This document shows, in pieces, positions 1 to 7,769 of a stretch of 64,000 bases of DNA. Location of the stretch: the NCBI GenBank assembly GCA_002483145.1, contig DLHJ01000019.1, forward strand, positions 434,001-498,000, given 5' to 3'. Origin of the DNA: Cellvibrio sp. UBA7671 (GTDB taxonomy: Bacteria; Pseudomonadota; Gammaproteobacteria; Pseudomonadales; Cellvibrionaceae). The number at the start of each line of letters is the position of its first letter. Positions within the stretch are counted from its first letter, which is position 1. Made by a program: the position numbers and the translations under genes. The notes beneath the pieces were generated by a model that saw only the letters and a program-made list of their open reading frames with translations, did no database searches and was not told the origin of the DNA.

Positions 1-921
1 GTGGTTGCTATAGGCTCGCCCTTCGGGCTGGATTACTCCGCGAGTGCAGGTATTGTCAGTGCCATTGGTCGCAGCATTCCTTCGGCACATAGTGAAAGTA
101 ATTATGTGCCATTCATCCAGACGGACGTTGCCATCAACCCCGGCAATTCCGGTGGGCCTTTGTTCAATATGAACGGCGAGGTGGTAGGTATTAACTCACA
201 GATCTACTCGCCTAGCGGTGGTTCTGTCGGCCTTTCGTTTGCAATCCCGTCATCATTAGCTGTCGATGTGGTCGCCCAATTAAAAGAAAAAGGTCGTGTA
301 GATCGTGGTTGGCTCGGGGTGATGATTCAGGATGTGGATAAGGATTTGGCCAGTTCGCTCGGTATGGATAAGCCCATGGGTGCTTTGATCAATGAAGTCG
401 ATAGCGAGGGACCAGCTGCGAAATCGGGTTTGAAGGCGGGCGATTTAATTATCAAATTCAATGGCAATGCGGTACATAATTCCAGTGATTTGCCCTCTCT
501 CGTGGGGCGTACTGCGCCTAAATCCAAGGTGCCGGTGGTCATTATGCGCAAAGGTAAAGAGCAGACAATTAATGTCACCGTGGGTATATTGCCGGTATCG
601 CCTGCAGAAGCAGCGGTGCGTCCAGCTTCGGTCCCTTTGCAAAACTCGGCAGATGTACTTGGGTTGGTTGTCAGCCCTCTGGAGCAAAGCCAGCGTGGTG
701 GTGCTGAGGCGGGTGTAGTCGTGCGCGATGTCAAACCCGGTAGCCCGGCAGCTGAAGCAGGTTTGCAGGCGGGTGATGTGATTACCCAACTGGCTTTCAG
801 TGAGATTAAATCTACTGACGATTACGCCAGGATAGTCAAGACGCTTCCTAAAAATGAACCCAAGGCAATCCGGTTCTATCGCCAAAACCGCCCAGTCTTC
901 AGGTCAGTGATAGTCAAATAA
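1..921 (+). CDS. mucD: Periplasmic Do-family serine protease MucD/DegP, 5'-truncated by the window edge
   Basis: C-terminal 306 residues of a trypsin-like HtrA protease of the envelope stress response. The first base falls inside the gene: the GTG at base 1 is an internal valine of the V-A-I-G-S-P-F-G strand, so the signal peptide and the His and Asp of the triad lie upstream. The nucleophile is the Ser of GNSGGP at fragment residue 50. Two PDZ domains follow, roughly residues 95-185 and 220-300, the usual Do layout. In pseudomonads mucD directly precedes lepA; here about 5 kb of xylanase genes separate them. A 9-bp inverted repeat follows the stop. Family assignment is firm; MucD rather than another Do paralogue rests on gene order. 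Confidence 0.93.
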   Translation: MVAIGSPFGLDYSASAGIVSAIGRSIPSAHSESNYVPFIQTDVAINPGNSGGPLFNMNGEVVGINSQIYSPSGGSVGLSFAIPSSLAVDVVAQLKEKGRVDRGWLGVMIQDVDKDLASSLGMDKPMGALINEVDSEGPAAKSGLKAGDLIIKFNGNAVHNSSDLPSLVGRTAPKSKVPVVIMRKGKEQTINVTVGILPVSPAEAAVRPASVPLQNSADVLGLVVSPLEQSQRGGAEAGVVVRDVKPGSPAAEAGLQAGDVITQLAFSEIKSTDDYARIVKTLPKNEPKAIRFYRQNRPVFRSVIVK

Positions 922-981
922 TGGTTAGTTGCTTCAACCTTATTTTTTCAGCGGGTTGATCAATACCTCTGCAATAGTTCT

Positions 982-1013
982 CCCTGACAGCTCCGTTTTA
1001 CGAACTGTCAGGG
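982..1013 (+). terminator. Putative terminator after mucD
   Basis: CCCTGACAG (982-990) pairs perfectly with CTGTCAGGG (1005-1013) across a 14-nt loop, followed by the weak T-rich tract TGTTTCT. It is placed to separate mucD from the xylanase cassette. Confidence 0.6.
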
Positions 1014-1130
1014 TGTTTCTAAAATACCATCGTATGGGAACAAAAATACGGTAGGTGTTACTTTCCAGGTAACCTATTTTCTCATTGATTATGTTTATAT
1101 AGTTTATTTGACTATATGCTTATGGTTTTA

Positions 1131-1159
1131 TTGACAATAAATAGTCTCGACGGTATACA
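1131..1159 (+). promoter_or_regulatory. Candidate sigma70 promoter of the first xylanase gene
   Basis: TTGACA (1131-1136), a 17-bp spacer and TATACA (1154-1159). Transcription starting near 1166 would give a leader of about 148 nt, almost the same as that predicted for the second xylanase (about 150 nt). This agreement supports both promoters. Confidence 0.55.
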
Positions 1160-1172
1160 TGTATACATCGAG
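1146..1172. promoter_or_regulatory. Palindromic operator candidate over the -10 box
   Basis: GTATACATGTATAC (1153-1166) is a perfect 14-bp palindrome covering the predicted -10 element and start point. Outer arms CTCGA (1146-1150) and TCGAG (1168-1172) extend the dyad with one unpaired base. The position suits a repressor. No equivalent dyad was found at the second xylanase promoter. Confidence 0.4.
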
Positions 1173-1223
1173 CACCGGGTGGTTTTAACAATAACAGCAA
1201 GCCTGTTTGGTTCTCGATATACA

Positions 1224-1242
1224 CCTGTCCGCAACAGACAGG
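1224..1242 (+). promoter_or_regulatory. Leader hairpin, first xylanase mRNA
   Basis: CCTGTC (1224-1229) pairs with GACAGG (1237-1242). The matching 19-nt element before the second xylanase has a T-A pair where this has C-G, a compensatory change. It ends 72 nt before the ATG, against 69 nt at the other locus. Downstream, GGTGGTATTGGTTG (1274-1287) is identical in both leaders. Confidence 0.5.
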
Positions 1243-1313
1243 ATCAACCTTGCAACAGTCCTCATCCTCTATGGGTGGTATTGGTTGAGAGGCTCAAAAA
1301 CGAGAGACTAATA

Positions 1314-2363
1314 ATGAAAATCACTGGCAAAAAAATCCTGACTTCACTAATCGGTGCTGCAGCCTTGTGTGTAACTGCAGTAAGTGCGCAAACCTTGAGT
1401 TCAAATTCTACCGGTACCAACAACGGTTTTTACTATACCTTTTGGAAAGATTCTGGCAGTGCCTCTATGACCTTACAGGCTGGCGGACGCTACACCTCGC
1501 AGTGGACCAGCAACACTAATAACTGGGTCGGTGGTAAAGGGTGGAATCCGGGTACCAGTTCGCGCGTGGTCAGCTACTCCGGTAATTACGGTGTCAGCAA
1601 CTCACAAAACTCCTATCTGGCATTTTATGGGTGGACCAGAAATCCGCTGATCGAGTATTACATCATTGAAAGCTACGGTTCATACAATCCGGCTTCCTGC
1701 TCGGGCGGTACTGACTACGGCAGTTTCACCAGCGATGGTGCTACCTACAATGTGCGGCGCTGTCTGCGCACCCAACAGCCTTCTATTGATGGCACGCAAA
1801 CCTTCTACCAATACTTCAGCGTGAGAAATCCGAAGAAAGGTTTTGGTAACATCTCCGGCACTATCACCTTTGCTAACCACGCCAACTTCTGGGCGAGCAA
1901 GGGTTTGAATCTGGGTAACCACGACTATCAAGTGTTGGCGACCGAAGGTTATCAAAGCACCGGCAGTTCTGATATCACCGTAAGTGCCGGTACCAGCGGT
2001 GGCAGCTCCAGCTCGGCACCGTCTGGTAGCAAGACGATTGTTGTGCGCGCCCGCGGTGCGGCCGGTGGTGAAAGCATCAGCTTGAAGGTGAACAACACTG
2101 TGGTGCAAACCTGGACCTTGTCTACCACTATGACCAATTACACAGCGACTACCAGCCTGTCGGGCGGTTCGCTGGTGGAATACACCAACGATTCCGGTAG
2201 CCGCGATGTGCAAGTGGATTACATCAGTGTGAACGGCAGCGTTCGTCAATCGGAAGCGCAAAGCTACAACACCGGGGTTTACCAAAACGGTGCTTGTGGT
2301 GGTGGCAATGGCCTGAGCGAGTGGATGCACTGCAACGGCGCCATCGGTTACGGTAATCTGTAA
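1314..2363 (+). CDS. Secreted endo-1,4-beta-xylanase, GH11 with C-terminal CBM60
   Basis: 349 aa. Cleaves internal beta-1,4 bonds of xylan outside the cell. The ATG at 1314 is chosen because it follows a GAGAG ribosome site and starts a clean Sec signal peptide (about residues 1-26, ending VSAQ). The GH11 jelly roll spans about 27-224. The nucleophile is Glu114 in PLIEYY and the acid/base is Glu211 in ATEGYQS. A Gly/Ser linker (226-239) leads to a domain (about 240-349) resembling CBM60, a calcium-dependent xylan-binding family, containing SGSRDVQVDYI and two cysteines near the end. A strong hairpin follows the stop, then the HEAT-like gene at 2482. A second enzyme, about 90% identical in the catalytic domain by eye, lies at 3829. 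GH11 is certain; CBM60 is a confident recollection, not a search result. Confidence 0.95.
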   Translation: MKITGKKILTSLIGAAALCVTAVSAQTLSSNSTGTNNGFYYTFWKDSGSASMTLQAGGRYTSQWTSNTNNWVGGKGWNPGTSSRVVSYSGNYGVSNSQNSYLAFYGWTRNPLIEYYIIESYGSYNPASCSGGTDYGSFTSDGATYNVRRCLRTQQPSIDGTQTFYQYFSVRNPKKGFGNISGTITFANHANFWASKGLNLGNHDYQVLATEGYQSTGSSDITVSAGTSGGSSSSAPSGSKTIVVRARGAAGGESISLKVNNTVVQTWTLSTTMTNYTATTSLSGGSLVEYTNDSGSRDVQVDYISVNGSVRQSEAQSYNTGVYQNGACGGGNGLSEWMHCNGAIGYGNL

Positions 2364-2391
2364 GCCTTAGTGCGATTGAACTGCAATGTGA

Positions 2392-2422
2392 AACAAAGGG
2401 GCAGATTATCTGCCCCTTTGTT
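2392..2422 (+). terminator. Intercistronic hairpin after the first xylanase
   Basis: A 14-bp stem (2392-2405 with 2409-2422) containing GGGGCAGA and TCTGCCCC around a 3-nt loop. The downstream T tract is short. It may partly terminate transcription or protect the xylanase mRNA 3' end, lowering expression of the downstream gene. The second cassette has a terminator at the same place. Confidence 0.65.
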
Positions 2423-2481
2423 CATCAAATTAATTACTCTAACAATAACAATAAAACCAAACACAACGAGGGATATTGAAG

Positions 2482-3435
2482 ATGAGTATCCAACCTGATT
2501 TCAAAAAACATCTGTTATTGCCCGCACTGATCGGGGCCGCTATTACCTACGGTGCTCTCTCCTTACTTGACGATGAATCGCTCCAGCGCGAACAGATTAG
2601 CGCCCTTGAAAGCCGGATTCTGGATTTGGAGTTGTTATTGGCGCAAAAAGAAGAAGAGCTGACCGATGCGCGCTTTTTTTCCGCAGGCGTATTTGGTGTA
2701 GCTGACGCATCTGCGCTATCCGGATCTGGTGCGACCAACCATCAGAAGCCTGCTGCAGCGGCCAACGTGCTGCCTGACCAGGCCGGCAGCGAGCAGACGA
2801 GTGACACGGCAAGCTTGGATAGCCAGCAGCTAATAAAAGATTTGGGCACCCTCTCTGACCGCGACCCGCGCTCGTTTTCCGAAAAAGCCAATGCCCTGCT
2901 GGCGGGTAATGCGGGTATAGAAGGCGTCGCTATTGTCAGCAAAAGTGTGTTTGATCTGGCGGAGAATCCTGAAGTTCTGCCTGACTATGAATTGGAATCG
3001 CTCTACCAGAGCCAGTCCAACCCGGATCTGCAACGGGTTATCGCCCAGGTGATGTCGACGCGCGGCGATAACCGGTTGCTTGAAAAGCAAATCACCAAAG
3101 CACAGGCCAGCTTGAGCAGTGATAACCCGTCCATACGCCAGCAAGCGCTGGTCGAGCTGGGTAAAACACGTTACGCCAGTGCCGCCAGTGCAATCGCACC
3201 GCTGCTGCAGGACAGCGACACCAACGTAAAACTGGATGCCTTATTAGCACTGCGCGCAACCGGCAACCAAAGCCATGTCCGGTTGGCTGAAACGCTAGTC
3301 AGTCACCCTGATCCGGCGGTGAGTTGGTTGGCAAAAGATGTTGTCAATAGTCTGCAAAACCTGAGTGAGCGGGCGCGCACCCAATTGGCCAGCACAGATA
3401 TTGTCGCTGAATTACCGGTAATAGCAGCGCCATAG
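2482..3435 (+). CDS. Membrane-anchored coiled-coil/HEAT-repeat-like protein paired with the first xylanase
   Basis: 317 aa, no named family recognised. ATG at 2482 follows GAGGGA with 8-nt spacing; a TTG two codons earlier is less likely. Residues 10-29 form one hydrophobic segment with a short basic start, so a signal anchor leaving the rest in the periplasm is likely. Residues about 34-62 form a charged, leucine-rich helix of coiled-coil type, then an Ala/Ser/Gln-rich linker to about 115. The rest is alpha-helical with repeat character near the end (SIRQQALVELG and NVKLDALLALRATG), resembling HEAT repeats. A paralogue follows the second xylanase, about 60% identical over the C-terminal half by eye. 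Co-duplication suggests a role tied to the enzyme, such as folding or export; this is inference. Confidence 0.8.
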   Translation: MSIQPDFKKHLLLPALIGAAITYGALSLLDDESLQREQISALESRILDLELLLAQKEEELTDARFFSAGVFGVADASALSGSGATNHQKPAAAANVLPDQAGSEQTSDTASLDSQQLIKDLGTLSDRDPRSFSEKANALLAGNAGIEGVAIVSKSVFDLAENPEVLPDYELESLYQSQSNPDLQRVIAQVMSTRGDNRLLEKQITKAQASLSSDNPSIRQQALVELGKTRYASAASAIAPLLQDSDTNVKLDALLALRATGNQSHVRLAETLVSHPDPAVSWLAKDVVNSLQNLSERARTQLASTDIVAELPVIAAP

Positions 3436-3643
3436 CTCTAGTTTGGCTTCTAATGAAATTAATCGTTTACTAATAAAATGATGGCGCATTTTTCATCTCA
3501 ATGTAGCTCGGATAACCGTAGTATTGATGCGAAAATGCACTCAATCCAGAAGCAAAAATTGTTAAAAAAGGGAACCTTTTAACATTTATTGTTAATAAGA
3601 CCATAAGCATATGGTTATTAAGACCATAATATATATGGTTTAT

Positions 3644-3672
3644 TTGACAATAAGACAATATCACAATAAATA
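3644..3672 (+). promoter_or_regulatory. Candidate sigma70 promoter of the second xylanase gene
   Basis: TTGACA (3644-3649), 17-bp spacer, TAAATA (3667-3672). The sequence around its -35 box nearly matches 1096-1116 at the other locus (about 19 of 21 bases). Predicted leader about 150 nt. Confidence 0.5.
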
Positions 3673-3741
3673 GGCACTTATCGCGGTGGCCAAGCCGGTT
3701 CATACCTATAAACAGCAACGCAGTATGGCCCCCGATAAACG

Positions 3742-3760
3742 CCTGTTCGCAATGAACAGG
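3742..3760 (+). promoter_or_regulatory. Leader hairpin, second xylanase mRNA
   Basis: CCTGTTC (3742-3748), loop GCAAT, GAACAGG (3754-3760): a perfect 7-bp stem in the same 19-nt frame as the hairpin at 1224-1242, with one compensatory pair change and one mismatch restored to C-G. The shared GGTGGTATTGGTTG block is at 3790-3803. Confidence 0.5.
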
Positions 3761-3828
3761 GTAAGTCCCAACAGCCCCTCCTCCTCTACGGTGGTATTGG
3801 TTGGGTGGCTATATCCTGGAGTCTAATA

Positions 3829-4896
3829 ATGAAACTAGTTATCAACAGCAAGCATGTAATTTCATCCTTTATCTGCGCAGCAGCGCTTTGTGCAACAACC
3901 GTTAGCGCGCAGACCTTAACGTCCAACTCGACCGGTACCAATAACGGCTTTTACTACAGCTTTTGGAAAGATTCAGGCAGCGCATCCATGACCTTGCATT
4001 CCGGTGGTCGTTACGCGTCCCAATGGACCAACAACACCAATAACTGGGTGGGCGGCAAAGGCTGGAATCCTGGCAGCAGCTCAAAAGTCGTCAACTATTC
4101 GGGTTACTACGGCGTAAGCAACAGCCAAAACTCCTACCTGGCACTTTATGGTTGGACCAGAAGCCCGCTGATTGAATACTACGTAATCGAAAGCTACGGT
4201 TCTTACAACCCGGCTTCGTGCTCTGGTGGTACTGACTACGGCAGCTTCACCAGCGATGGTGCTACTTATAATGTGCGTCGTTGCCTGCGCACCCAACAGC
4301 CCTCGATTGATGGCACCCAAACGTTTTATCAATACTTCAGCGTGAGAAATCCTAAAAAAGGTTTCGGCAATATTTCCGGCACCATCACCTTTGCTAACCA
4401 CGTTAACTTCTGGAGAAGCAAAGGCCTGAATTTGGGTAATCACAACTACATGGTATTGGCGACTGAGGGCTATCAAAGTAACGGCAATTCTGACATCACT
4501 GTCGGTGAAGGTGCCGGTAATGGTGGTGGGGGCGGCAGCTCAAGTTCAGCATCCGGCGGGAACAAAACTATTGTAGTGCGCGCCAGAGGGACAACCGGCC
4601 AGGAACAAATCCGCTTGAAAGTGAACAACACCACTGTGCAAACCTGGACTTTGTCTACCGGTATGAACAACTACACGGCGACGACCAATTTGTCGGGTGG
4701 TTCGCTGGTTGAATACTTCAACGATTCCGGCAGTCGCGATGTGCAGGTGGATTACATCAGTGTGAATGGCAGCGTGCGTCAGTCAGAAGCGCAAACTTAC
4801 AACACCGGTGTTTACCAAAACAACGCCTGTGGCGGTGGCAATGGCGGCAGTGAATGGCTGCATTGCAATGGTGCTATTGGTTACGGCAATCTGTAA
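3829..4896 (+). CDS. Secreted endo-1,4-beta-xylanase, GH11 with C-terminal CBM60, second copy
   Basis: 355 aa paralogue of the enzyme at 1314. The ATG at 3829 follows GGAG and begins a signal peptide (about 1-28); an in-frame GTG at 3805 would add eight residues and spoil it. Catalytic glutamates are Glu116 (PLIEYY) and Glu213 (ATEGYQS). The linker (about 226-246) is longer and glycine-rich, then a CBM60-like domain. A stretch of 72 residues in the catalytic domain, from I-E-S-Y-G-S to F-A-N-H, is identical to the other copy although the DNA differs at about two dozen synonymous sites. That argues for an old duplication under strong purifying selection rather than recent conversion. A terminator follows, then the second HEAT-like gene. 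Confidence 0.95.
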   Translation: MKLVINSKHVISSFICAAALCATTVSAQTLTSNSTGTNNGFYYSFWKDSGSASMTLHSGGRYASQWTNNTNNWVGGKGWNPGSSSKVVNYSGYYGVSNSQNSYLALYGWTRSPLIEYYVIESYGSYNPASCSGGTDYGSFTSDGATYNVRRCLRTQQPSIDGTQTFYQYFSVRNPKKGFGNISGTITFANHVNFWRSKGLNLGNHNYMVLATEGYQSNGNSDITVGEGAGNGGGGGSSSSASGGNKTIVVRARGTTGQEQIRLKVNNTTVQTWTLSTGMNNYTATTNLSGGSLVEYFNDSGSRDVQVDYISVNGSVRQSEAQTYNTGVYQNNACGGGNGGSEWLHCNGAIGYGNL

Positions 4897-4914
4897 GTCT
4901 TAAGTTGCACAACC

Positions 4915-4942
4915 AAGGGGCGGGATTTCCTGCCCCTTTTTT
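4915..4942 (+). terminator. Rho-independent terminator after the second xylanase
   Basis: AAGGGGC (4915-4921) pairs with GCCCCTT (4932-4938), with the run of six T at 4937-4942. It sits between the xylanase and the HEAT-like gene, as in the first cassette. Confidence 0.75.
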
Positions 4943-4991
4943 AATCGACATATTTTAAACGATACCGACAAAATAATAACGAGAGATATGA

Positions 4992-5804
4992 ATGAGTAAT
5001 CCCCGCTACTCCAACAAACATCTGTTACTGGCTGCATTTATCGGCGCGACGGTGAGTTATGGCGTGCTCAATATCTTGTTGGATGGCAGCGCACAGCGCG
5101 AAAAAATTATTGCACTTGAACATAAAGTTCACGCACTGGAATCGACACAGAAACCAGTAACTTTACCAGCCGATAAAACCGCGCCCCAGGCGTTGGATAT
5201 TGAGCAGATTCGCAAAGATTTGAGCACACGTTTTATTGGTGACCCGCGCAGCTTTGGGGAAAAACTGCGCGACTTTGTAGCAGAAAACACCCATCCACAA
5301 ACCATCGCAATTGCCTGTAAAGTCGTTGCCGATCTGGCTGAGAACCCGGATACCCTGACAAACCAGGAACTGGATTCACTCTATCGCAACCAAACCAATC
5401 CAGAATTAAAACGCGTGCTTGCACAGGTACTGTCGCTGCGCGGTGATAACAATTTGATGCACATGTTAGTCGCCGAAGCCCAGCCAGGTTTGCGCAGTAC
5501 CAACCCCGCGGTGCGCCGCCAGACACTGAACGATCTGGCCAAAACCCACTATGCCGGTGCCGCCGCTGCGATTGTGCCACTGGTACAAGACAGTGATACC
5601 AGTGTAATTCTGGATGCGCTGCTCGCCCTGCGCGCTACCGGTAACGAAAGTCATATCCCCTCTGCAGAAAATCTGTTGAGCCATCCGGATCAATCAGTCA
5701 GCTGGCTCGCCAATGATGTGATTAACCATTTGCAAAATCTGAGTACCAAGGCGCGCACCAAACTCACCAGCGCTGATGTTGCGGCGGAATTGCCGCCATT
5801 GTGA
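4992..5804 (+). CDS. Membrane-anchored coiled-coil/HEAT-repeat-like protein paired with the second xylanase
   Basis: 270 aa paralogue of the product at 2482. ATG at 4992 follows a GAGAG ribosome site. Layout is the same: short basic start, one hydrophobic anchor (about 9-30), a helix with heptad leucines (QREKIIALEHKVHALE), a linker much shorter than in the other copy, then helical repeats including VILDALLALRATGNESH. The missing 47 residues come mostly from the low-complexity linker, which suggests a flexible spacer holding the repeat domain off the inner membrane. No catalytic motif is visible. Function unknown; pairing with a xylanase is the only clue. Confidence 0.8.
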   Translation: MSNPRYSNKHLLLAAFIGATVSYGVLNILLDGSAQREKIIALEHKVHALESTQKPVTLPADKTAPQALDIEQIRKDLSTRFIGDPRSFGEKLRDFVAENTHPQTIAIACKVVADLAENPDTLTNQELDSLYRNQTNPELKRVLAQVLSLRGDNNLMHMLVAEAQPGLRSTNPAVRRQTLNDLAKTHYAGAAAAIVPLVQDSDTSVILDALLALRATGNESHIPSAENLLSHPDQSVSWLANDVINHLQNLSTKARTKLTSADVAAELPPL

Positions 5805-5811
5805 AGCGTGG

Positions 5812-5861
5812 GTAGGCTGAAGTTGGTTAGTCGTAGGCTGAAGTCGGTTAGTCGTAGGCTG
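5812..5861 (+). repeat. 21-bp tandem repeat, about 2.4 copies
   Basis: Units at 5812-5832 and 5833-5853 (GTAGGCTGAAGT, T or C, GGTTAGTC) differ at one base; a partial third unit is at 5854-5861. It lies between the insert and lepA, 8 bp after the stop of the second HEAT-like gene. Confidence 0.85.
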
Positions 5862-5969
5862 CAGGGTGTGCTCATGGCATGCCCCTACCAAATAGGCTAG
5901 AATGCCGCCCACTATTTCCGCCCCCCATTCCGGGGACAAATTCCAACTTCATAAAGTAGTTAAGCGCCT

Positions 5970-7769
5970 GTGACTGACCTGAGCCATATCCGTAACTTTT
6001 CCATTATTGCCCACATTGACCACGGTAAATCCACCATCGCCGACCGCTTCATCCAGATGTGCGGTGGTCTGAGTGACCGTGAAATGGAAGCGCAAGTGCT
6101 TGATTCCATGGATTTGGAGCGTGAAAGGGGCATCACCATCAAAGCCCACAGCGTGACGCTTTACTACAATGCGCGCGATGGCAAAACCTACCAGCTTAAC
6201 TTTATTGATACCCCCGGCCATGTGGACTTCACCTATGAAGTATCCCGCTCGCTGGCTGCCTGTGAAGGTGCGTTGCTGGTTGTCGATGCGGGGCAGGGCG
6301 TAGAGGCACAGTCAGTTGCCAACTGCTACACCGCGATTGAGCAGGGCCTGGAGGTAATTCCGGTTTTGAACAAGATGGACCTGCCGCAGGCAGAGCCAGA
6401 CCGCGTTGCACAGGAAATCGAAGACATTATCGGTATCGACGCCACCGAAGCCGTGCGCTGTTCCGCCAAGTCCGGCTTGGGCATGGAAGATGTATTGGAA
6501 GAGCTGGTGCGCCTGGTTCCGCCACCCGTAGGCGATGTTGATGCACCGCTGCAAGCGCTAATTATCGATTCCTGGTTCGACAACTATCTCGGCGTTGTCT
6601 CGCTGGTGCGCGTAAAGCAGGGCACACTGCGCTTGAAAGACAAGATCATCACCAAAACCATCGGCAAAGCGCAAATTGTTGACGGTGTGGGTGTATTTAG
6701 CCCCAAGCCCACCCAGTTAAAAGAACTCAAGGCCGGTGAAGTAGGCTTTGTGGTCGCTGGTATCAAAGACATTCATGGCGCACCTGTAGGCGATACCATC
6801 ACTCATGCGCAAACTCCTGACGTTGAAGCGCTGGAAGGTTTCCAGAAGATCAAGCCGCAGGTTTACGCCGGTATGTTCCCCATCAGCTCCGACGACTTCG
6901 AGGACTTCCGCGAAGCCTTGGCCAAGCTGACATTGAACGATGCTTCCTTGTTCTACGAACCCGAAAGTTCAGATGCGCTGGGTTTCGGCTTCCGCGTCGG
7001 TTTCCTTGGCATGCTGCACATGGAGATCATCCAGGAGCGTTTGGAGCGTGAATACGATCTCGACCTGATCACTACGGCTCCAACAGTAGTGTTTGAGGTA
7101 GTCAAGCGCGGCGGTGAAGTTATCTATGTTGATAACCCGTCCAAATTACCTGACCCTGGCTCGATCGAGGAAATGCGCGAGCCGATCGTTGAGGCCAATA
7201 TCCTTGTGCCGCAAGAACACTTGGGTAACGTCATTACCCTGTGTATCGAAAAGCGCGGCGTGCAAAAAGATTTGCAGTTCACCGGTTCGCAAGTGCGTGT
7301 GCGCTATGAGTTGCCGATGAATGAAGTGGTTACTGATTTCTTTGACCGGTTAAAGTCAGTTAGCCGCGGTTATGCATCGCTGGATTACAGTTTTACCCGC
7401 TTCCAAGCTGCAAGTCTGGTTCGTTTGGATGTGTTGATCAACAGTGAAAAAGTGGATGCCTTGGCGATTATTGTGCATCGCGATAAAGCGCACGGTATGG
7501 GTCGCTCGCTCACTGAAAAAATGAAAGAGCTGATTCCTCGGCAGATGTATGACGTTGCAATCCAGGCCGCTATTGGTGGACAAATCGTTGCGCGTTCAAC
7601 TGTAAAAGCATTGCGTAAAGATGTAACAGCCAAATGTTACGGTGGCGATGCAACCCGTAAGAAAAAGCTGTTGGAAAAACAAAAAGCTGGTAAGAAACGC
7701 ATGAAGCAAGTGGGCAGTGTTGAAATTCCACAAGCTGCGTTCTTTGCCGTACTGAAAATCGATAGCTAG
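5970..7769 (+). CDS. lepA: Elongation factor 4 (LepA), ribosomal back-translocase GTPase
   Basis: 599 aa, normal length. Ribosome-binding GTPase acting during initiation or after mistranslocation. GTG start at 5970. G1 is AHIDHGKST (residues 14-22), G3 is DTPGH (80-84), G4 is NKMD (134-137); EF-G-like domains and the LepA-specific basic C-terminus (about 480-599) follow. It opens the conserved block lepA-lepB-DUF4845-rnc-era-recO. Confidence 0.98.

Follow-up and report, generated by a model that had tools for sequence, protein, structure and literature searches.

Tandem units of a GH11 xylanase gene and a candidate chaperone gene in Cellvibrio, preceded by a putative structured leader RNA

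Membrane-anchored chaperones of secreted proteins are the closest described counterparts of a protein encoded in two tandem gene units of Cellvibrio sp. UBA7671 (positions 1314-5804, + strand, of the window, which denotes the whole 64,000-nt stretch analysed); each unit encodes a glycoside hydrolase family 11 (GH11) xylanase with a carbohydrate-binding module of family 60 (CBM60) and a HEAT-repeat protein, here termed the partner. The lipase-specific foldases (Lif, LipB and LipH; Pfam PF03280) resemble the partner in having an N-terminal inner-membrane helix, a linker and an all-helical periplasmic domain and in being encoded beside a secreted hydrolase. LipH is a membrane-anchored chaperone of the layout seen here (PMC13381987). 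The type II secretion system (T2SS) chaperones CpaB of Acinetobacter and LipB have this layout as well; CpaB resembles the partner in its single N-terminal membrane helix, in its gene directly downstream of that of a secreted effector and in its place outside the Lif family, whereas it differs in its SRPBCC-like domain and protease client (PMC4713064).

The partner differs from Lif in giving no match to the Lif family in Pfam or NCBIfam and in having a HEAT solenoid, and its client would be a xylanase. The Lif-like order of N-terminal anchor, linker and helical periplasmic domain was found in the partner by hydropathy, charge and an AlphaFold2 model, with the location being predicted, and two traits of T2SS chaperones were found, in its N-terminal transmembrane segment and in the clustering of its gene with GH11 at 28/28 loci of the genus and 6/6 loci of the Luteimonas family. 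We put at roughly 0.5 the probability that the partner is a dedicated inner-membrane-anchored periplasmic chaperone for the xylanase, Lif- or CpaB-like and of another family. The enzymes are of the same type as the GH11-CBM60 xylanases of Cellvibrio japonicus, presumably Xyn11A and Xyn11B. The GH11 genes are also preceded by a leader that is like the Rfam cis-regulatory leader RNAs in having covarying stems between promoter-like sequence and the start codon of one gene family, and unlike them in lying under the threshold of every Rfam 15 family. Neither the HEAT partner nor the leader was described in the titles and abstract openings of literature on Cellvibrio xylanases, HEAT proteins and xylan regulation, a coverage that took in little of the subscription literature and is weak evidence of novelty.

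The two units lie between mucD (stop at 921) and lepA (beginning at 5970) and comprise the following features:

1100-1139, + strand: two copies of a 17-bp repeat (1100-1116 and 1123-1139; consensus TGGTTTATTTGACAATA), 23 bp apart, the second overlapping the -35 element
1131-1159, + strand: promoter-like sequence seen by eye, TTGACA (1131-1136), a 17-nt spacer and TATACA (1154-1159)
1166-1316, + strand: conserved, putatively structured 5' leader of GH11 copy a, with the ATG as its end
1314-2363, + strand: GH11-CBM60 xylanase copy a (open reading frame and Pfam), signal peptide by eye
2393-2422, + strand: intergenic hairpin with a 14-bp stem, followed by only three consecutive T
2482-3435, + strand: partner A, with membrane helix (about residues 7-30), coil (32-70), disordered linker (71-108) and HEAT solenoid
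3589-3652, + strand: three copies of the 17-bp repeat, starting at 3589, 3612 and 3636 (spacings of 23 and 24)
3679-3831, + strand: conserved, putatively structured 5' leader of GH11 copy b, with the ATG as its end
3829-4896, + strand: GH11-CBM60 xylanase copy b (open reading frame and Pfam), signal peptide by eye
4915-4938, + strand: terminator-like hairpin with a run of six T
4992-5804, + strand: partner B, with N-terminal membrane helix, short linker and HEAT solenoid

The reading frames, their order and their coordinates agreed with a preliminary description made from the sequence alone, in which each unit combined a GH11-CBM60 xylanase with a hairpin and a membrane-anchored HEAT-like partner. 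The leaders and the repeats upstream of them were absent from that description. Both enzymes matched Glyco_hydro_11 (224.1 and 222 bits; curated Pfam cut-off 27) and CBM60 (37.9 and 35.9 bits; cut-off 28.2), and both partners matched HEAT_2 (PF13646; 34.6 and 33.2 bits; cut-off 27.7). The similarities given in that description were reproduced as well: identity of about 90% in the catalytic domain was measured as 169/187 (90%), the identical stretch of 72 residues with about 24 synonymous changes was found with 25 codon changes, all synonymous, and the partners, said to be about 60% identical over their C-terminal half, were identical at 116/202 positions (57%) from residue 113 on. Over their full lengths, enzymes a and b were identical at 297/349 positions and partners A and B at 149/270. 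Recent gene conversion as the source of the 72-residue block was ruled out by the 25 synonymous changes within it. Consensus promoter and terminator scans gave no excess over shuffles, and their output included neither the promoter-like sequence at 1131-1159 nor, as terminator-like, the hairpin at 2393-2422. Between partner B and lepA a short tandem repeat, TAGTCGTAGGCTGAAGTYGGT-like by eye, was observed at 5812-5865.

Close to the partner N-terminus, hydropathy and charge revealed a hydrophobic helix that was mostly preceded by net positive charge; the best 19-residue segment had a mean hydropathy of 1.34-3.56 across 34 rows, with the scan covering segments that start within the first 40 residues. 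Only about 5-21 residues precede this helix; a coil or linker that varies in length joins it to the HEAT domain, which mostly has a DIxAELP-like motif at its end. The AlphaFold2 model of a partner (mean predicted local distance difference test score, pLDDT, 74.9; predicted template modelling score, pTM, 0.52) was a helical solenoid, with pLDDT of 81-95 at residues 131-300, and its linker (71-112) was disordered. Among the matches listed, similar solved chains were alphaRep and armadillo designs and HEAT scaffolds; a HEAT-type solenoid is a common arrangement and shows no function. In Pfam (E up to 1), partner A matched HEAT_2 with weak others and partner B matched HEAT_2 alone, with no lipase chaperone and no signalling domain found in either, and NCBIfam gave no Lif family match for the partners. 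Across the genus a hairpin with four or more T after it was found by script in 18/22 units, and in one more by eye.

The distribution of the partner was examined in 57 genomes (its own, 20 others in the genus, 15 in the family and 21 in the order). Counting the own genome, 17 of the 21 genomes of the genus carried close partner genes, 28 in all, while GH11 genes resembling the window copies occurred in 18 of the 21. All 28 lay in a same-strand cluster with a GH11 gene: (i) 22 directly downstream of GH11; (ii) five as a second partner immediately after the first (G003, G009, G010, G014 and G019); and (iii) one, in G004, between a Calx-beta protein gene and a subsequent GH11. Three genus genomes (G005, G015 and G020) had neither gene, and the sole one with GH11 but without partner (G007) is represented by an assembly that is 79% complete; no close partner gene without GH11 was found among the 57 genomes. 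The pair was also present in a complete genome (G018), and the larger GH11 proteins had no partner directly behind them. Outside the genus the best partner matches had E-values of 3e-18 (G032) and 6e-5 (G031). Among 369 genomes sampled from the class, only weak matches were found besides the own genome (14/369 genomes, best E 2.6e-7), which were read as generic HEAT and rejected as relatives; the HEAT proteins of G004:C1, G008 and G009:C34 were likewise rejected, having no membrane helix by eye and ABC-transporter genes as neighbours. The idea of a cassette, which the preliminary description would have dropped if HEAT-like genes occurred widely without GH11 neighbours, was upheld for all close partners of the genus and the Luteimonas family, with exceptions confined to two distant homologues that adjoin other secreted proteins.

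These two homologues, G032 (E 3e-18) and G004 (E 2e-12), have the same layout as the partner, and each adjoins a small protein in which a signal peptide was recognised by eye and no Pfam family was found. The small-protein gene is directly upstream in G032, with a hairpin between the two genes by eye, and directly downstream in G004; the two small proteins had no significant mutual similarity, and no GH11 was found in a 19-kb region around the G032 homologue. Such neighbours may possibly constitute further client-partner pairs. Distant membrane-anchored HEAT proteins adjoining small secreted proteins without a Pfam family lie at L080:9351-11000 and L198:2169-3964 (both minus strand).

The pair was also found in another order, Luteimonas being placed in Lysobacterales and Cellvibrio in Cellvibrionales by NCBI taxonomy. 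A scan of one genome per species, seeded with one conserved peptide of the partner alignment and not exhaustive, returned 14 loci, of which nine were genus contigs already known (five titled Cellvibrio) and five were from Luteimonas. In these five and one further genome of that family, the GH11 protein was 72-80% identical to copy a, with the match extending through the CBM60 part, and its gene was located 13-16 nt upstream of the partner with no hairpin of note between (15 nt from the first ATG in L115). Among 198 genomes of the Luteimonas family the partner was present in four and GH11 in 10, with all four within the 10. HEAT_2 scored 20.3 bits in the one Luteimonas partner scanned, under the cut-off of 27.7. 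In the GH11 tree the Luteimonas rows were nested within those of the genus, with G011 as their neighbour (90/81). This suggests transfer of this GH11 from a Cellvibrio-like donor; the nesting was not seen in the midpoint-rooted partner tree. At L115:1468-1490 and L073:9564-9670 the GH11 frame was observed to continue into the partner gene, interrupted only by its own stop codon, probably by chance. As judged from gene neighbourhoods, the pairing of the two genes is real, conserved and present in another order.

Under the mechanism that we propose, each unit would be an inherited operon to make and export one xylanase, with activator-like repeats over the promoter, a structured leader ahead of the GH11-CBM60 xylanase gene and, past a hairpin, the partner gene. 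A fraction of the transcripts would be read past the hairpin, yielding less partner from the same message; the partner would be anchored in the inner membrane and expose its HEAT solenoid to the periplasm, where it would bind the newly exported xylanase and either aid its folding or pass the folded enzyme to the T2SS. The GH11 protein would be the client of the partner and probably also of the T2SS; the T2SS of C. japonicus is reportedly the subject of a published paper. The tandem would derive from an old duplication, with near-identical enzymes under purifying selection and partners that diverge faster yet would still be constrained. This chaperone role fits best because the pairing is constant, the partner has a membrane anchor and a scaffold of a protein-binding type, and its gene is positioned behind a hairpin; it also fits because the two distant homologues adjoin other secreted proteins.

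The membrane helix, long linker and protein-binding-type scaffold would also suit a tether keeping the xylanase in the periplasm or at the inner membrane, as an anchor or a store, with no folding role. We regard this as unlikely, as an endo-xylanase with a carbohydrate-binding module would be useful outside the cell and a partner encoded downstream of a hairpin would not be abundant enough to hold the enzyme. Somewhat less probable again is a role of the partner in the envelope as a sensor or regulator reporting the status of xylanase or xylan: a single-pass protein with a periplasmic domain, encoded in an operon with conserved control elements, would suit such a role, but so short a segment before the membrane helix, the lack of a Pfam signalling domain and the other secreted proteins beside the distant homologues argue against it.

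That a secreted hydrolase is constantly paired with a membrane protein could also be explained by a partner that restrains the enzyme inside the cell, as an inhibitor or in quality control. This appears improbable, since the cell would have no xylan of its own to protect and the larger GH11 proteins lack a partner directly behind. Least plausible, and in our view hardly credible, is a hitchhiking neighbourhood with no functional tie; related genomes do share neighbourhoods by descent, and in G001, as in the own genome, the mucD-lepA site is occupied, but the pair stays together at different loci and in another order. The dedicated chaperone is the reading that we retain.

The age of the two copies was examined by phylogeny and by substitution rates. 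Partners A and B coexist in ten genomes. In the partner tree the 10 B rows grouped as one clade (100/99) and 17 A-type rows as a second (89/94), with G018 outside both; in the GH11 tree, from which the GH11 of G004:C58 was left out, GH11a formed one clade (9 rows, 99/99) and the GH11b rows formed no single supported clade. Supported groups common to both trees were the Luteimonas rows, G006 with G016, G002/G008/G017 and G009/G012/G014. The gene order was a-A-b-B in four genomes, a-A-B in five, where A and B are in tandem with no second xylanase between, and A-b-B in one, and eight loci had a single GH11 with a single partner. Because A and B coexist in ten genomes, and B and GH11a are each one clade, the copies are, on these trees, older than many of the species, A and B having separated before them. 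In this respect a reading of the units as a local duplication did not stand, and a recent local duplication with a drifting partner was ruled out by the trees and by the ratios of nonsynonymous to synonymous substitution (dN/dS, omega).

These ratios were calculated with our own Nei-Gojobori (NG86) script, with dS mostly saturated. Between the window copies the enzyme had a dN of 0.077 at a dS of 1.21, compared with 0.317 at a dS of 1.70 (near saturation) for the partner HEAT domain, in agreement with the unequal divergence first described. Among orthologues, omega was 0.02-0.09 for the enzyme (14 comparisons) and 0.04-0.17 for the HEAT domain (11 of the 14, dS being undefined in the other three), and the ratio of partner to enzyme dN was 0.7-5.1, exceeding 1 in 12/14 comparisons. 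Thus, the strong constraint that had been claimed for the enzyme held and the drift of its partner did not: by its omega the HEAT domain is itself constrained, though usually faster than the enzyme in dN.

The mucD-lepA junction, described initially as usual and split by the cassette, is split by the units in the own genome, in G001 and, with additional genes inserted, in G003; in the remaining genomes with informative contigs the units are at other loci. Of 18 other genomes checked, eight (one outside the genus) had mucD and lepA adjacent with a gap of 162-534 nt, and in the other 10 no mucD was found in the stretch taken.

The 17-bp repeat lies over the -35 region of the xylanase genes and was present as a pair with 23-bp spacing in 19/30 GH11 upstream regions examined in the genus and in 0/6 of the Luteimonas family; the repeat pattern was matched with 0 mismatches at G000:C3:435102-435139. 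When scanned with up to 2 mismatches, the double-site pattern had three matches in the own genome, all before GH11 genes (control 0), and 34 in the 57 genomes, of which 31 were before GH11 (reversed control 1) and three were not (G007:C83, G032 and G053). The repeats look like a candidate GH11-specific activator site. At L067:6599-10596 and L079:396-4276 we observed an orphan GH11b-like gene followed by that of a membrane protein with an AraC-type helix-turn-helix (HTH_18, tested for L067), with a GH16-like gene on the opposite strand by eye and no HEAT partner. The AraC-type gene was rejected as a general GH11 regulator, the own genome having only matches of 40% or less; relatives of at least 58% identity were found, among the matches listed, only in G004, G007, G009, G012, G013 and G014.

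About 150 nt before the GH11 start codon were conserved by eye among copies a and b, the orphans and the larger GH11 genes. Conservation was not seen by eye in the G002:C2/G004:C58/G008/G017:C205 group or in Luteimonas, and no RNA-model match was found at those GH11 genes. A MAFFT alignment of 22 leaders (A4, which omits G001_b for a run of N, G009_orph and G018_multi, and in which G010_a is cut by a contig end) gave 17 pairs by RNAalifold, nine with changes on both sides. A 28-pair structure drawn manually on A4, comprising a long 5' hairpin with a AACAATAACAGCAA loop, a CCTG/CAGG hairpin and a branched 3' element, had 87.5% of cells paired and 14 pairs changed on both sides, neither of which was reached by any of 500 shuffles. 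In 35 sequences fitted to the model, 87.6% were paired and 18 pairs changed on both sides, with slid versions reaching at most 52%; alignments A5 and A6 were fitted to models, and A4 was not. RNA-model searches of 28 genomes returned 36 matches, of which 35 were within about 100 nt upstream of a same-strand GH11 match, including 16 of the 17 outside the training set. A 26-genome search, overlapping the former in three genomes, detected a leader in a different genus (G023, E 2e-7) just upstream of its one full-length GH11 match, with different stem sequences and the same layout. Matches with no tie to GH11 were those at G007:C248 (E 0.08) and G008 (weak, E 0.005). A search of window positions 900-6000 against Rfam 15 gave 10 matches up to E 5, none at gathering score and none in a leader.

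Several points limit the case for a structured, regulatory leader or weigh against it. For one of the five measures on A4, the number of further pair types, 11/500 shuffles attained the observed value, and related sequences can exceed shuffles without structure. Slid versions on A4 fell to 46% paired or less, but the 28-pair structure tends to exceed such versions because it was drawn on that alignment. Single sequences had unremarkable folding energies (z -1.73 and -0.32), which leaves covariation as the basis of the case; no common Shine-Dalgarno partner was found in the ensembles of 31 leaders; and common descent may be enough to explain why GH11 genes share the leader, which makes its GH11-only occurrence a weaker argument than covariation. 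We regard with some reserve, as possible and rather on the doubtful side, the joint proposition that the partner would be the founding member of a new family of secretion chaperones with a membrane anchor and a HEAT solenoid, every one of them dedicated to an adjacent secreted protein, and that an undescribed structured leader RNA would control the GH11 messages of Cellvibrionaceae, serving only this xylanase family.

GH11 xylanases are mainstays of biomass conversion, and the general view is that they fold without assistance. If the chaperone role is true, the partner would be, to our knowledge and within a literature coverage that is not exhaustive, the first dedicated chaperone for a glycoside hydrolase. 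The leader RNA raises the question of which signal, if any, a xylanase message senses, and a partner kept beside GH11 across orders may offer a lead for better xylanase secretion.

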